A stretch of DNA of 64,000 nt from Sternotherus odoratus (taxonomy: Eukaryota > Chordata > Testudines > Kinosternidae): positions 10,794,285 through 10,858,284 of the forward strand of contig JAVMKO010000021.1 of assembly GCA_032164245.1 (NCBI GenBank). Reading direction: 5' to 3'. Each line of letters begins with the position of its first letter. The stretch's first letter is position 1. The position numbers and the translations under genes are program-made. The notes under the pieces are model-generated. The model made no database searches. It saw only the letters and a program-made list of their open reading frames with translations, and was not told the DNA's origin. Positions 194 to 63,769 of this stretch are shown one piece after another.

Positions 194-280
194 CATTTTC
201 ACTTTCTCAAAGATAATGGGCTCCAGTTTCTTCTCTGATGCGGACTCGTCATTCCTTTTCCACTTGTCATCTTTTTCTTT
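194..280 (-). CDS. SMAP2: SMAP2 coding exon 5
   Basis: 87 nt, phase 0 at both ends, coding for residues 135-163: [20 protein letters not shown] then PIIFEKVKM. The acceptor is TTTGTACAG and the donor is ATG|GTAAGT. It is the charged linker after the ArfGAP domain. The next exon is outside the window. Confidence 0.93.
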
Positions 281-3200
281 CTGTACAAAGAATCAAACAG
301 AAGTGAGGATCAAAGCTCAGGCCATAGCAATGAGGAAAGTTAAAATAAAAATAGAAATCTAGTTTGGACTGCACCTTTTACCAACATAAAAAGCAGCAGC
401 TAATTGGATAACTACTTTGGCTTATACACACTTCCCCTTACCCAGCAATCAATTTTTTCCCAGTGCCTTGGTTAACCGTTTAAAAACACGTTTAGCCATA
501 TGTACACATGGTAATTTCAATCTGTAACAGAGGCTACAACTGCAGAATGGCCATGAGATACTCCCTATTTTTGGAGAATGAATAAAGTCACAAATAGTTA
601 AAATTCCCAAACAAGAGAAATACTTCCAAGAAGTCTGTGACCCTATTGAAAACACAGTTTACTCAGTTGCAGGTTGAGGAATAAGGCAAGATGGTCAACC
701 CTATACATCTGTCAGTTGATAGTTTTGGCGACAATTTTATGGTAACAAGTTCGTTCAGGCTAACAGAGCTATCAGGGCAGTGTTTACAAGTGTACGATTG
801 GTCTTCTACACAAGTTCTTAGGAAGTAGAGACTGACCCTAAGTGCATTGATGTCAAGACTTCGATCCAGGTATTTCTTCTTTTCATATTTGTCTCGGATA
901 AAGCCCTCCACGGCTCTGCAAGAGGCTGGTTAAGGATGAATGACTCAAAAGTTGACGCTGTCCATATAGTTATACACAATACATTTTGTGACCACCAAAT
1001 AATGGCAGTTTAAGGGGACGTTTGTATTAGCGAAAGTTAAACCGTGAAGAGGAAAAAAAAAAAAAAACTTACCTCTGGCTCTGCCAGCTGACTGGGGCTT
1101 GCATGGTTCAGGCTGCAGGGCTGTTTCATTGCTATGTCGACTTCCAGGCTCAGGTTGGAGCCTGGGCTTTAGGACCCTGCAAAGTGGGAGGATGCCAGGA
1201 GCACAGGAACCAGCCTGGAAGTCAACACAGCAATGGAAGAGCCCTGCAGACTCATGAGCCCAAACTAGCTGGCACAGCCCATCTGCAGGTATCTAGCTGC
1301 TGTAGAGGCATAACACTGCAGTGGGCTCCTACGGTCTCTTTTTATATTACAAACAAACAGGCCACTGAGCAACCATCCTGCTCCTCACTCAGTTTACAGA
1401 ACTATGACCCTGCGGCCTAGGAGACCTTCTCTAACTTACGATGGTCAGACATTTTCAAAAGGCGCCGAACACTTCCAGCTCCCACCAGTTTCAGTGGGAT
1501 CTCCGAGTGCTTGGTGCTTTTGAAAGTCAACCCTTCAGTTTGTTCGCGAACTGCCAATGCATATGCCAAGCAAGGGCTTCAAATTGTAACAGACTGGCCT
1601 CACTTAATTCTTACACTCCAGAGCTTCGCAAGGATCATTCAGATCTCTTCCACTGACGACAGTAATGTACCAAATCTGAAGCACTGCACAGAGGGTGTCT
1701 AGCTAGGGACCTGTTTTCATGGCTGACACTCCAGCACAAAGATCAGCAGCTGCCCTCTTTGTAGAGAGGCTTTTCATCTTGTTTCTAAGTCCCCTATATC
1801 CCCAAGTAATAAGGAAAGAAAGGATGCTGGTCTGTCTGGGGCCGCCTGAAGGTCTCTGGCAGGTAGGCTTCATAGAGACGATTCGCCTTTCGGTTTCCCA
1901 TCTCCTGCATACACTGCAATTCAAAAGAGAGATCGTAAGCCATGTTTCGGCATAAGAAAGTTCTGTCATACAGACCTATGGTGCAAAGCCGCCCTCCAAG
2001 AGTCTTAAAGCTCCTCTATTAAACTAGAATATTTTTAGACAGATCTCAGAAGCCTGTTCTGTGCCTTTGCGGCAGACTGAAAACCCAAATATTTAGAGAG
2101 CTCAACATCATTTAACTGGAATAAACTGAGCCTTAAACGTCTGAGCAGCCAGAAGACCCAGTGGATTTGAAACTTTGTTACACAGGAGGTGCAGGAGGGA
2201 TGTTTCCATCCTTGGAGGAATTTCATACTCTGAACATACTGAAGGGGAAAAACCCCATCAAATCAGACAGTGCAGGAATGGTCCTTTCATATCCAAGACT
2301 CTCCATTTTCCTTGGGATACTATTCCGTAACTCAAAGCTTGACTGGTAAAGTTTCCCCTGATAGTCAACTTACACTTCCTTCCTTTTATCCCATGCCACT
2401 GCTCTAGTTCCACCCCAGGTAGCTCTCCCTCACCGGCATTTACACCCTTCCACACAGTAGGATTGTGCCCAACTTGCCTCCTGCTCTTTAGTGGTCTGTG
2501 TGCCATGTGATACATACAGAGCTTAGTCTTCCTTTGGAGGCCTTACTAGCTACGGCATTATAATGTCTTAGAAATAAGCTTTGAGATCCCAATTAAAGAG
2601 AAAATAGCTATAAGAGTTGAGAATTATCTAGTGCTGGAGTTTATGAGTGAGAACAAGAGCTAGTTGAGCAGAGGATTTCTATTGCAACAGCTGTTCTCAC
2701 CCTGTAGGGGTAACCAAACCCAAACCCGACACTGTCGCCCGAGAGTGCGTTCGTCCTAGGACCATCAGACCCCTTGCCAAGCTTGGCTAATTTGTGATCT
2801 CCCTTCTGTACAGCCCAAAGTAAAAACACAGCAGACCCAGCATCTAACGCCAGAGACACATGCATGCTTATCTAGGCAGTTATTTGTGTCGGACAAATGT
2901 TTTATCAATATAACCAAAGTCTGTCAGACTCCCAACAGGCCAATGTTTTAATCAGTCAGCTCAAGAAAACTAGGAGTGGTGTTTGTGTGTGTGGTTTAAC
3001 TGTACAGGGAGGAAAACTTTTGTGATCATTTTAAAGAAGTCTTTCCCTCTCCCTCCACTGGACTCTCTCTCTGACAATTTAACATGTATTATAGGATTTA
3101 CTGAACCCCATTCAGCCAGAGCAACAGTTCTGTTCACATTATACGGCCCAGCTCCATTTTTACTTGTATCTGTTCTTGAGTCCACTGGTCGAGATTGACA

Positions 3201-6200
3201 GATTTCACCCGGGATATGTGAACTCCTAGATTCCGGTGGATCCCAGCACAGCGAATACAAATGAACACGCCAATGTTCCAGGATGCCCATCGTGGTCCTG
3301 CAAAAGGACATCAGAAGAGGCAGTCAGACACGTGTTCATAAATCCCCACCCCCATGAACAATCTCTTATGAGAAACTGCACCATGTGAACTGTGGATTGA
3401 AGATTTTGCACTTTCATCTAGAATGGAAATGGGGATTAGACACTAGCAGTGTGTTCTCTTAAAACAAAACAAAAAACAGGTCCAAGCAGAAGACTTAGGG
3501 AACAACTGTTTTGTGTTTCCTCCTTCCCCCTCCAATCTGGGTTACTTGTGTAACAAAACAGAAGCCTCTCAAAGTGAAACCAGAATAATCCTGGGGTGCA
3601 GAGAGAGGATGGCACTGCAAAAACATCCTTTCGCTTAATCCCCATTCTTTTTAAGTTACCTTTTTGATATCTAGCAGCTAGTGTCCAGTCACTAGAGACA
3701 TACTGGAGGGTGGTTTCAAAACCTCAATTTAGCATGGAGAGAGAGATTCAATGTTACCCAAGAGCCAGATTTCTGGATCCGACTATTTCAGTTTGAGTTA
3801 TTGGACATTAAGACGTTTTTCCTCTACTCCTGGAAAAAACACAAAATGTATTGTACGAGATATAGCCATGTTGCTTAGGTTACAGCAGAAGAGGTGTACA
3901 GCACAGCAGTTTATTCGTTCTCCTGATTCCAATGGCCTGACTGATTCTCCACCTTAGGCAGAGTGAATGGAAGTTCGGGTTGTGATCGGAGAGAGAAGTC
4001 GATACACAGTTTACTCTTCAGTCTTCAAACAGTTTTGATTTTTAGATGCAAGGTTAACATGCAGCTTTCAACAGACAGGAGAGCTCCAAGGTTTGGAAGA
4101 AGGGAGGTCATGCTGGGAAAAAACAAGGGAAAGCTTTACAAGTTGAATTTGACTCATTGTGAACTAGAACCTTAATCTTTCTGTGCAATAAGCATGGAGA
4201 TGTATTGTCAAGTGAAATACAGAGCTTTGTGGACTGCTACTCATCACCACCAGGTGGCATTCACAACTACTGTTCCCCTCCCAAGTCTCCTCCAGAAAGA
4301 TTAGCATTTGAAGTTTCTATCACGGCCAGCATAAAGTGATGAGGCCAGTTTCAAGACATGAACAACTCTTGAAATAACCTTCCTTTGCGGAGCACAGCCA
4401 GTTCTCCAAAACGCACAGACTTGGCCCAAGTTCCAAAGGCCTGCTGAATATTTACAAAAGCCGAGTGAGCCTACAGCTAGCTTGGTTTGCAAACTGTCCC
4501 TCATGCAATGTAAATTCACACACAGTATCAAGGCTGGCAGGCCAAAAGAGTGATTAACTGATACAGACAAACATTGGAGCATTTAGAGTAGATACCCATA
4601 CACTTAACACCAGCTCAAGAAATACAGGAGTAGATAGAAGGCAATAAGGGAAAGTTGTGCAATTTTAGAAAGCAGAAGTGTTCAAAACCTGCATGTACGG
4701 TTTCGTGCCATGTAGATATTTTGCTATTCAAAACCTTTTCTTTTTCCTTCCCCTTCTGGTTCATCTAGTAATGTTAATGCTCTTCAAAACTGAACGAAAG
4801 TTAACAAGTCTGGGCACACAATCAATGCTAAACCTTGGATCAAACTCCATGCTCTCCCTTCCCTCCTGAGAATTTTCATATCCATCAGGTTTATTTACGG
4901 TAGAGTGCATAATAAGAATTGGAAGTTTAAAAAAATCAATTGAAAGATCAGGATTCTGAATGGAGAGACATTCCATGGTTAAAACAGACTACCTCTGCAG
5001 GAGAACAAGAAATTAGGCCACATATATACTAGGAGTTTTATTGGCTTGTCTGAAAGGGGAGTGATTTTTTTTGTTTTGTTACCAACACTTATGCTAGTAT
5101 AAACTGCTTATTTCACTCTGGCAAACCGGAATAATATCAGTACATGCCCTTTTGCATAGGGCATAACTACATCTACACCAGGGGAGTTTGCTGCTTTAAC
5201 TGTGACAACATAGTAGCAAAACTTAAGTGTAGACAATGTCATATATGCCCCATCCTCTCAGTAGTTGCCCTCTTTCAATACTTTAGAGAAAATGCAAGAT
5301 TATGATATAGGAGTGCACAAAACATGGTAGCCATTTTCCAGACAGAGGAAGACAGAGTTCCTGCCATGAAGAGCAAACAGCAGCATACACTTTTAGATAA
5401 GGGGTTCAACTCCATGAAGACATCTGTTCAGGGACAGGGAAACTAACTCCTTTGCATTCTGAAAGCTCAGCAGACATTCAGGAGGAACCTTGTCAGAGGA
5501 AGGGGAACTCGGAGAAAAATCCTTCAGAAGATGGACGTTCTCACAATTGTTAGGTAGAATCATCCTTCAGGGTTAACAGCGTTTCCTTAGTCTCCGGCCT
5601 CCCTATGCCCACACACGGACTGCTGTCAGCCAAGCAAGCACAAGCAATATGGAGGAATTTATCTCACAGCAAGAGCAGAGTTTGAAAACCACATGTACAG
5701 AAAGGAAAACTAATGAATTTATCTGACATTGTATAGTTTAATCAAAGTTCCAAGGGCACTGCATAGGAAATCTCTAGTCTACACTACCATTGCTCTTAAC
5801 TGTCTCTTTAGAAAGGCCATTTCTGGACTTCACATCCAAACTCAACAAGTAGTTCCTGAGGAACACCTCAATAACGTGAAGTGAAGTGAGCTTTGACACC
5901 CAATAGCCATCACACAATAATGGCACAGAAGTACCTACAGTGCACTATGGGTATATTATTCAGGAAGGAAAGCCCACAAACCCCTTTGCAGTAGGTAAGT
6001 ATTCTGGTATCAGAAAAACTGGCACTCAGTTAAGTGACTTGCCAAATGTGTTACAGTAGTCAGCAGTAAAACTAGGAAGAGACCCCTGCAATCCCAGTGC
6101 CCAGTTGCCAGATTTACAAGTGCCTCTTATTTAATAAAAACTGTTCCATTTATAGATTTCATTGTGTCTCATTTCAGACAGTTTTAACTTGGGGACTAAC

Positions 6201-21200: not shown

Positions 21201-22999
21201 AAGTCCAATTCACACACAGGGTTAAGTGTTTGCAAATTGTCAGTATTTGAAATTCAGCCACCATTTACTCAGGATGTTTGAAAGAGTCCTTAGAGACAGA
21301 CTTTAGCCATATTTTCTATTCAACTGGTTTGCCAAACAACATGAACAGCAGAGCTACAAAACCCTGTTTCTCAGAAAACAATCACAGAAATGGCGTCTGA
21401 CTCTTGACTATAGTAATGCTAGCGTAGGCTGCTGTAGCTCAGGATTTATTAGCGAACCACAACATGAAGTTTGGATAAAATGAAGTAGCTTTTAGTGCCA
21501 GCACTCTTCCCAATTGAACTAGAAGCATCCATTGCAATATGATGGAGAAACTTACTGAGAGGAAATTGGGAAGAAGTTTCCACCCCACATACTTCTACAA
21601 CCTGGGCAGGTATTGCTCCTTTGTTTGCACTAAACAGGCATTTAGCATCTTCTCAAGAGGACAAGAACACATTTTCTAGCAACAGCCCTAGACTACAAGA
21701 TTTTAGACCTCAAACTGTCACATACGGAGATGTTAAGATGTTTTCAACAGCATTTGGTCTTTCTACCTTCATCCTCAAGAGTAGAGGGCAGAAAAGGTCC
21801 AATGAAAGTGCACTATCTACCCGCTTCCCTCACAAAAATTCTTTAAAGAGCTGTCATTAAGACGACTAGGGTAACAGATGGAAGCTGCCTTAGTGCCAAT
21901 GTGTGTTCCAAAATAGCATGGAGTGCAAATAAAGTTACTTCAGGTTTGACTCCTTATGTTGAACACCTGTGTTATCCAAAAGTGCATCAGGTGATAATGA
22001 GCATCAACTGACGGCCACATCCACCACAAATAAATCACACCTCCACTGTCCAGGAAGATGTGTGGGACGACCATGGAAGTGGATTTTCCCCAAGATGAGG
22101 ACTGGATTGTCAGAAAACTCCAACCGGCGAAGGCTTTTTTGGCCTACTCAAAACTAGTCCCACACATCCCAGAAGTGAATTTCCTCCACACCCTCCTTGA
22201 TCCAGTTCTGATACATGATGTTTTGTTCAACAACCTTGGCTTGACAATGAATCCTACGTCAGCCTGCTAATAAGTTCGTTCCTCTTCTTCATCGATCAGC
22301 CCACAGCACTTATAAATACACAAGCTGCTGAATACCATGTTCTGGAGTTGCCCTCTTTACACGGTTACATAATCAGCCCATTTAGCCGTCCCCCCCTAGA
22401 TGTTCTTTCAACAAAGACCAACAAATAAGCTGGGTGACTTTTCAACCCTGTCCCCCTCACCTGCTGAGTCAGGGATCATTTTCCCCACCTGCTCGCTCCC
22501 TTTCAAAAGAGGCCGCCCACACACAGATACCAGGTCTGAGGGCAGGAGGGGGGCCCTGCGCAAGAAACGACCCCATGACAGGGGGCCCCACTAGGAGAGT
22601 CACCACCCAAGCTGGGCAACACACACAGGCCTTTTATTCTGTATTGCAGCCCCCCCCCCCCAATCTGCAGGCACAAGCCCTAATCTCCTCCCCCCCCCCC
22701 AAATATCTGCAGGTACAAGCCGTAATCTCCTCCCCCTCCCAAATATCTGCAGGCACAAGCCCTAATCTCCCCCCCCAAAATCTGCAGGTACAAGCCCTAA
22801 TCTCCCCCCCCCCAAATATCTGCAGGTACAAGCCCTGATCTCCCCCCCCCCAAATATCTGCAGGTACAAGCCCTGCGCCCCCCCGGCTGCGTTCACCTTT
22901 GGCCTGGCAGTCGGCGCAGTCCTTGTTCTCCTCCTCCAGCAGCAGGCTGGCCAGGACGGCCTGGTACCGGTCCACGTCCCGCACCGACTTGCCCGTCAT
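194..22999 (-). CDS. SMAP2: SMAP2, small ArfGAP 2 (5' part: coding exons 1-5)
   Basis: Encodes the N-terminal 163 residues of a SMAP-family Arf GTPase-activating protein, which stimulates GTP hydrolysis on Arf1 at trans-Golgi and early endosome membranes and binds clathrin through its C-terminal part (family knowledge). The spliced product starts [13 protein letters not shown] and contains the ArfGAP zinc finger C28-x2-C31-x16-C48-x2-C51 followed by the catalytic arginine R56 (C-x4-R). The block from P36 to Q79 matches human SMAP2 as I remember it at every residue. Exons lie at 22897-22999, 3164-3297, 1828-1913, 837-915 and 194-280, joining in frame with phases 1, 0, 2, 0. The serine-rich, clathrin-binding and Met/Gln-rich C-terminal exons lie to the left of the window. 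SMAP1 is excluded because the N-terminus and the [17 protein letters not shown] stretch follow SMAP2. The gene is driven from a CpG island and diverges from COL9A2. Confidence 0.96.
281..836 (-). other. SMAP2: SMAP2 intron 4
   Basis: 556 bp between donor AGG|GTCAGT and acceptor TTTGTACAG. It is AT-rich and unremarkable; no repeat or RNA gene recognised. Confidence 0.8.
837..915 (-). CDS. SMAP2: SMAP2 coding exon 4
   Basis: 79 nt: the last base of Q108, then residues 109-134, [19 protein letters not shown] and LDINALR. The acceptor is CTCTTGCAG (U12-type upstream intron) and the donor is AGG|GTCAGT. The stretch is the C-terminal end of the ArfGAP domain; human SMAP2 has M for L in KKKYMDRS by my memory. 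Confidence 0.94.
916..1827 (-). other. SMAP2: SMAP2 intron 3, probable U12-type GC-AG intron
   Basis: The intron begins GCATCCTTT on the minus strand, against the U12 5' splice-site consensus RTATCCTTT, so it differs only at position +2. Near its 3' end it has TCCTTAAC (936-929), the minor-spliceosome branch-point element, with the branch adenosine at 930, 14 nt from the acceptor AG. There is no long polypyrimidine tract, as expected for this class. It is 912 bp, phase 2, and contains a turtle-type short repeat at about 1083-1340. The splice sites were placed by joining two conserved ArfGAP exons. Confidence 0.82.
1083..1340. mobile_element. MITE-like short repeat in SMAP2 intron 3
   Basis: The segment has alternating CAGGCT/AGCCTG words and an end reading GGTATCTAGCTGCTGTAGAG. 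This resembles a turtle family of non-autonomous DNA elements whose ends read like GTGTAGACATACC. The same style of repeat is seen at about 17705-17895. Ends are approximate and the superfamily is unassigned. Confidence 0.4.
1828..1913 (-). CDS. SMAP2: SMAP2 coding exon 3
   Basis: 86 nt coding for C80-D107 plus two bases of Q108: [20 protein letters not shown], then TFRRPQTD. The acceptor is ATTGCAG|TGT. No GT lies at or near the 3' boundary. The frame of exon 4 requires the exon to end GAC CA, and the intron then starts GCATCCTTT, a U12-like donor with GC. The resulting TDQAV junction is the same as in SMAP1. Confidence 0.9.
1914..3163 (-). other. SMAP2: SMAP2 intron 2
   Basis: 1250 bp between donor CAA|GTAAAA and acceptor ATTGCAG. 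Ordinary intronic sequence; nothing else recognised. Confidence 0.75.
3164..3297 (-). CDS. SMAP2: SMAP2 coding exon 2 (ArfGAP core)
   Basis: 134 nt coding for the end of G35 through Q79: [11 protein letters not shown], then [13 protein letters not shown], then the [13 protein letters not shown] block and EQIQ. It supplies C48, C51 and the arginine finger R56. The acceptor is a pyrimidine stretch ending TTTTGCAG and the donor is CAA|GTAAAA. The translation agrees with human SMAP2 at every position I can recall. Confidence 0.97.
4242..4260 (+). promoter_or_regulatory. CTCF-like site
   Basis: CCACCAGGTGGCA in context fits the core CTCF consensus. This is a motif match only; occupancy is not shown. 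Confidence 0.4.
8312..8985 (-). mobile_element. Non-autonomous DNA transposon-like repeat (hAT-like)
   Basis: A G/C-rich island of about 670 bp in AT-rich intron. It ends CGGGCTGTAGTTTGCCCACC CCTG; read on the minus strand this gives CAGGGGTGGGCAAACTACAG, the terminus of a very common turtle/crocodilian repeat. The interior contains GGCGGGCCATGAATGCTCAC and a strong hairpin at 8701-8741. The left end carries AGTTTGCCCACCC in the same, not inverted, orientation. Superfamily inferred from the terminus style. Confidence 0.6.
8698..8744. repeat. Hairpin with paired CCAAT boxes inside the hAT-like repeat
   Basis: Arms GCAGCTCCCATTGGC (8701-8715) and GCCAATGGGAGCTGC (8727-8741) are exact inverted repeats with an 11-base loop. 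The stem extends three more base pairs with one G-U pair. Each arm contains a CCAAT pentamer on one strand. Confidence 0.75.
11215..11345 (-). mobile_element. CR1 LINE 3' tail fragment
   Basis: Reads TAGAATCAGAACTGGAGTGG, then ACCTCGAGAGGTTATCTAGT CCAG. This is the antisense of the CR1 end that normally reads GGACTAGATGACCTC and finishes with ATTCTA repeats. It is truncated and old. Confidence 0.6.
13955..14075 (-). mobile_element. SINE fragment (MIR/tRNA-core type)
   Basis: CATTTTACAGATGGAACAAG followed by GTGACTTGCCCAAAGTCACA is the antisense of the CORE-type SINE motif around TGACCTTGGGCAAGTCAC and CCATCTGTAAAATG. Ends approximate. Confidence 0.5.
17705..17895. mobile_element. MITE-like short DNA element
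   Basis: Starts GGTATGTCTACATTGAAAAA and ends near CACCGCTACTTTTAGCCCCA. These are the termini and TTTTTAGCC interior of a turtle non-autonomous DNA element family. Boundaries approximate. Confidence 0.45.
17914..18158. mobile_element. MITE-like element with imperfect TIRs
   Basis: The left end AAGCTAGGTTTACACTA is imperfectly inverted relative to the right end AGTGTAGACTAGCCCTG. The interior includes ACATCGACCTAAGC and CCAACGGGAGAGC, typical of a turtle family ending in GTGTAGACYAGCCC. No transposase coding. Confidence 0.55.
18495..18562 (+). mobile_element. CR1 LINE 3' tail fragment
   Basis: GGGGATTGATCCTGCTTTGA followed by GGGGGTTGGACTAGATGACC is the conserved tail of sauropsid CR1 retrotransposons. 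Only the last few dozen bases are present. Confidence 0.65.
20725..20835 (-). mobile_element. tRNA-derived/CORE SINE fragment
   Basis: GAGAGGCAGAAAGGTGTAGT, then GGAACAGAACCCAGGAATCC, is the antisense of GGACTCCTGGGTTCTATTCC and of the CTCTGTGCCTCAG region of the SINE. Old copy. Confidence 0.5.
22661..22886. repeat. 36-41 bp minisatellite at the SMAP2 exon 1 donor
   Basis: Six units beginning ATCTGCAGGYACAAGCC and ending in a run of 7-10 C. Unit length varies mainly through the C run. The last unit stops about 10 bases short of the SMAP2 exon 1 5' splice site. On the transcribed (minus) strand each unit carries a long G run. Confidence 0.9.
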
Positions 23000-29205: not shown

Positions 29206-62533
<33,328 letters not shown>

Positions 62534-63500: not shown

Positions 63501-63769
63501 CTGTCAGGATCTCAAGGTGTGGGTGTGTGGGTGTGTCTGTCCCAGGACCTCAAGGTGTGTGTGTGTGGGTGTGTGGGTGTGTCTGTCCCAGGATCTCAAG
63601 GTGTGTGTGTGTGGGTGTGTGGGTGTGTCTGTCCCAGGATCTCAAGGTGTGTGTGTGTGGGTGTGTGGGTGTGTCTGTCCCAGGATCTCAAGGTGTGTGT
63701 GTGTGGGTGTGTGGGTGTGTCTGTCCCAGGATCTCAAGGTGTGTGTGTGTGTGTGTCTGTCCCAGCTGC
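63501..63769 (+). repeat. 46-bp minisatellite downstream of COL9A2
   Basis: Units CTGTCCCAGGATCTCAAGG followed by GTGTGTGTGTGTGGGTGTGT and GGGTGTGT repeat with a 46-base period: a partial first unit at 63501, four full units from 63537, and a shortened last one from 63721. It gives Cys/Val/Gly-rich open frames that are not genes. Confidence 0.95.

Follow-up and report, generated by a model that had tools for sequence, protein, structure and literature searches.

The question raised by this locus is why one intron in the ArfGAP-coding part of SMAP2 begins with GC in the turtle Sternotherus odoratus, and which spliceosome would remove it. The evidence assembled here allows intron 3 of turtle SMAP2 to be read, with considerable confidence, as an ancient U12-type intron in which the +2 base has changed from T to C. 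Throughout, the window denotes the whole stretch of 64,000 nucleotides that was analysed (G000:C21:10794285-10858284, from a 1.76-Gb genome).

SMAP2 gene model and the exon 3/4 junction

SMAP2 exons were joined from the window together with the adjoining 20 kb (84-kb region), producing a minus-strand model of 10 exons and 9 introns that encodes an uninterrupted protein of 429 aa, identical to human SMAP2 in 352 of 429 aligned columns. Among the 120 SMAP2 matches listed of 3,180 found, the closest was from Chrysemys picta bellii (95%), followed by Pelusios and Carettochelys (91%). Exon joining placed the coding part of exon 1 at 22897..22999, exon 2 at 3164..3297, exon 3 at 1828..1913 (86 nt, ArfGAP domain), exon 4 at 837..915 and exon 5 at 194..280, all on the minus strand. 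Eight of the introns are GT-AG and intron 3 is GC-AG; junction 8 has two possible acceptors, 3 nt apart, leaving intron 3 unaffected.

A 38-bp × 5.9 tandem repeat lies at 22650-22874, in SMAP2 intron 1 near exon 1, and further tandem repeats are found at 47350-47668 (19-bp × 16.8) and 63517-63756 (46-bp × 5.2). On the plus strand, open frames with collagen-like Gly-X-Y repeats extend over ~31500-62500 and presumably belong to COL9A2, going by synteny. An Rfam scan of the window gave 0 matches at gathering score.

Intron 3 occupies 916..1827 on the minus strand (912 nt, phase 2), with its 3' terminal AG at 916..917. Exon 3 ends in GAC CA and exon 4 begins with A GCC GTG, and their join reads PQTDQAVEGF, colinear with the solved SMAP2 and SMAP1 domains; the joined 100-aa protein aligns without gaps to both (2iqj, 98 aa, and 2crr, 93 aa). 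All GT-AG, GC-AG and AT-AC pairs up to 15 nt from the exon edges were scored against human SMAP2, and the GC-AG pair ranked first (score 264). The runner-up, an AT-AC pair (249), was rejected, as it destroys the donor and branch elements described below and adds residues; none of the GT-AG pairs at this junction restores the protein. The initial annotation had assigned the intron to SMAP2 with these ends and this frame, and the gap-free alignments and the junction scores bear it out.

It is highly improbable that the GC site is dead and that SMAP2 is made through a cryptic donor, exon skipping or intron retention. Exon 3 does contain a GT, at -52, that pairs in frame with three acceptors, the three frame-keeping GT-AG pairs, but the products are 14, 18 and 25 residues shorter within a 55-residue segment; skipping of exon 3 shifts the frame, its length being 86 nt, and retention of intron 3 meets a stop after 11 protein letters (letters not shown). 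The nine joins, by comparison, yield the intact protein, and the same clean junction (DQ|AVE) is found in 64 of the 120 SMAP2 models listed.

Donor, branch element and the SMAP1 counterpart

The 5' splice site of intron 3, GCATCCTTT (1819..1827, minus strand), has G at base 1827 and the +2 C at base 1826, and matches the minor-class consensus RTATCCTTT at 8 of 9 positions, deviating only at +2, and the major-class consensus MAGGTRAGT at 3 of 9. Under the same donor scoring, the other eight SMAP2 introns gave 2-4 of 9 for the minor and 6-9 of 9 for the major consensus. The branch element TCCTTAAC (929..936, minus strand) is an exact match to TCCTTRAC, with its second A (base 930) 14 nt ahead of the final base of the intron. 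Both elements stand at positions preset by the reading frame, and both are scarce by chance: in the 84-kb region, nine-mers with at most one mismatch to RTATCCTTT number 13 and 14 among 83,991 on the two strands, and an exact TCCTTAAC 9-20 nt upstream of an AG was found at 0 of 6,394 and 2 of 6,018 AGs per strand, intron 3 included. In its termini the intron departs from the GT-AG or AT-AC usual for the U12 type; U12-type introns are, however, defined by the 5' splice site and branch sequence, the termini being only usual (PMC3584512). A branch spacing of 11-13 nt is given as the optimum in PMC6717393, compared with 14 nt both here and in the SMAP1 intron described below.

The initial annotation had read the donor as RTATCCTTT with C at +2 and had placed a U12 branch element 14 nt from the AG; both readings hold, and the consensus match is higher for U12 than for U2, as its minor-class assignment implied. 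Its further argument, the lack of a long pyrimidine tract, has to be given up: 14 of 20 bases are pyrimidines at -23..-4 of intron 3, within the range of 13-20 that was measured in seven other introns of SMAP2, so the tract does not discriminate the minor class.

Within intron 3, a palindromic repeat was found at 1090..1245, and the stretch 1080-1290 folds as a hairpin (z -7.9). The repeat has at least 66 matches genome-wide, on both strands and with its own copy included, and belongs to a dispersed, MITE-like family; a role for the hairpin in splicing was set aside on account of this membership.

The paralogue SMAP1 of the same genome carries a homologous intron (C3:44208320-44224638) in the same phase (2) and at the same codon, with the donor GTATCCTTT at CA|GTATCCTTTT, the same branch element TCCTTAAC and the same 14-nt spacing to the AG. 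It differs from SMAP2 intron 3 in its length of 16,319 nt and in its GT start, and over the first nine bases of the two donors only +2 differs (GT vs GC). With a GT minor intron at the same codon, a minor intron with T at +2 was most likely in place before the duplication that gave SMAP1 and SMAP2, and T would accordingly be the ancestral base at this position.

The intron was sought in more distant relatives through gene models that run on into it, since a start of GTATCC or ATATCC is then translated as Q/S-Y-P and a start of GCATCC as Q-H-P. The 177 distinct SMAP relatives (the best 120 of 392 together with the best 120 of 508 matches) comprised 97 spliced models, 17 read-throughs, all with Y and 15 of them as Y-P, 7 other models and 56 without a usable signature, among which the sturgeon SMAP2 P0051 reads DQYP by eye. 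The Y read-throughs include teleosts, a sea slug and a sea cucumber, and together with SMAP1 of the same genome they show position and class of the intron to be conserved. No SMAP relatives were confirmed in viral and prokaryote contigs.

These data also bear on the class of the intron. Major-class GC donors usually rely on a strong remaining match to U1, and a major-class (U2-type) GC-AG intron that merely resembles the minor class is very unlikely here. Such introns do exist, accounting for 0.77% of human U2 introns, a far larger set than the U12 introns (PMC7367187), and the pyrimidine count is like that of the other SMAP2 introns; strong U1 complementarity is nevertheless absent, the junction CCA|GCATCC agreeing with MAGGTRAGT at only 3 of 9 positions. 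Nor would this reading account for the exact branch element or for the minor-type intron of SMAP1. Donor, branch element and the minor intron of SMAP1 at the same codon make it very probable that intron 3, with its C at +2, is a minor (U12-type) intron by inheritance, and we infer that the minor spliceosome would splice it at this GC.

Bird protein models and the age of the +2 C

The same read-through logic was applied to the 120 SMAP2 proteins listed. Besides the 64 clean models there were 41 with DQ-HP, 0 with DQ-Y, 14 others (an extra Q in eight, AEE/EETW-like residues in six, such as AAEETWTVESF in P0236) and 1 without the segment. DQ-HP corresponds to CAR CAY CCN and hence to an intron start of (G/A)CAYCC, with CAYCC at +2 to +6; H fixes only CAY, so that in this protein-level reading +1 in birds could be G or A. 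All 41 DQ-HP models, which fall among P0195-P0293, are from birds and represent 41 named species, among them tinamous (P0216, P0226, P0268), quail (P0232), pigeon (P0195), raptors and passerines. The HPFF-type residues are probably annotation errors, in which gene models carry apparent intron residues, and pipelines may have run on into the intron because they met no GT donor. Where the donor is GT, the model would be clean and perhaps part of a large cluster, and the 41 are therefore positives and not a frequency; the clean model P0186 represents 139 sequences, and Cariama cristata has both forms (P0186, clean DQ|AVE, and P0257, DQHPFF). A bird-like 428-aa frame with a clean junction, P0182 (418 of 428 residues identical to P0186), covers the query from end to end on a 1,912-base contig, too short for anything but a copy already spliced. 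The source code of P0182, lgn, is taken to denote assemblies of public reads.

If GT were the true start, and the C a private variant or an error of assembly, a single base of a single assembly would be concerned. This is nonetheless very improbable, because CAY is encoded at this junction in bird models from 41 named species, one each, and the residues that follow vary by species, as they would not if a single error had been copied.

Intron residues beyond the donor were compared between birds and turtle in the 22 models with the commonest pattern, HPFF[LF]C; these were chosen by their first six residues, and only codons 7 to 10 count. The mean distances to turtle intron codons 7, 8 and 9 were 0.95, 1.14 and 0.09 bases, against 1.65, 1.80 and 1.90 at random, and codon 10 was no closer than chance (2.05 vs 1.85). 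In the remaining 19 of the 41 bird models the residues are more divergent, or the intron is left within a few residues.

Turtles and birds diverged more than 250 million years ago. The shared CAY suggests that the +2 C is older than this split, and we infer that birds and turtle may hold it by common descent from a T-to-C change. An alternative that competes only with this shared descent, leaving the minor-class GC in place, is that C arose separately in turtles and birds. We consider it unlikely. In its favour, a change from T to C takes one transition, one turtle was read at the DNA level, GT species would be hidden among the clean models, and 19 of the 41 bird models are off the commonest pattern. 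Against it, CAY occurs in three tinamous, quail, pigeon, raptors and passerines, and 22 models come near the turtle codons 7 to 9, though not codon 10. With turtle DNA from one species and bird data at the protein level, the GC-starting intron 3 most likely goes far back in the lineage of turtles and birds.

Proposed recognition of the GC donor and known precedents

Components of the minor spliceosome were found in the genome above the Rfam cut-offs, with one match for U11 (117.8 bits), one for U12 snRNA (150.2 bits) and seven for U6atac (134.9 bits), of which the three inspected keep AAGGAGAG. Their pairing segments agree with the standard ones, and no compensating change was seen in the pairing segments of U11, U12 and U6atac. 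Beside the U11 gene lies a tandem array (L017, G000:C21:3060225-3060366) in which ~10 units were counted by eye, each containing ACACTGTATCC.

In the work of Dietrich in 2005, the majority of U12 introns mutated at +2 were reportedly defective. Pairing with U11 leaves out the first three bases of the intron, and the U11-48K protein reads these instead (PMC3584512). The +2 position is then a protein contact, which may explain how a C is tolerated there at the cost of a weaker site. In the mechanism that we propose, U11 would pair with the unchanged stretch from +4 onward, U12 would pair with TCCTTAAC, and U6atac would then take over the donor; recognition would be weakened by the +2 C, not lost, and splicing would proceed at 1827/1828 and 915/916, perhaps inefficiently.

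GC-AG introns of the minor class had been called very rare in the initial annotation, and published counts agree, putting them at 0.61% of the U12 set in human and 0.97% in chicken (PMC7367187, Table 2). Three precedents are described. A minor intron of human LZTR1 is termed a unique GC-AG splice site and responded significantly to depletion of CENATAC; GT sites outcompeted the GC site when tested in a P120 reporter (both PMC8280824). Turtle SMAP2 intron 3 shares the minor class and the GC-AG termini with LZTR1, in a different gene, and may be similarly sensitive to loss of CENATAC. In the turtle, the homologous LZTR1 donor (L011/L008, G000:C22:656915-659238) appears to be GTATCCTTAA, with the exon edge set by eye, which would seem to give turtle and human different +2 bases in LZTR1. 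Drosophila CG16941 (SF3A1) likewise has a GC-AG intron of the U12 type, the human counterpart being given as absent in the table and as GT-AG in mammals in the text of PMC2831892; the SMAP2 case is instead found in a turtle and, at the protein level, in many birds. For a lipid transfer protein gene of Acanthamoeba castellanii, a distant protist, evidence for a GC-AG U12 intron is reported (PMC2846911).

The papers searched do not mention a minor intron of SMAP2 or SMAP1, and the main texts checked for these words contain neither SMAP nor SMAP2; in connection with intron retention, SMAP2 came up in a paper on dyskerin. The kind of intron is already known, and the interesting part is its apparently long conservation; the reading of CAY at this junction in 41 bird models is new here. 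One could speculate that the +2 C has been kept by selection, with a weak donor throttling SMAP2 through retention and an early stop since before the turtle-bird divergence while SMAP1 keeps a strong GT, but we regard this as a doubtful proposal.

The +2 base of minor introns is nearly always T, and it is read by protein, not paired with U11 (PMC3584512). A C at this position in a turtle and in birds, beside a GT twin in SMAP1, offers a natural comparison for the importance of +2 and for regulatory retention of introns with weak donors. Many bird SMAP2 models may carry intron residues, and errors of this kind allow splice sites to be read from protein databases.
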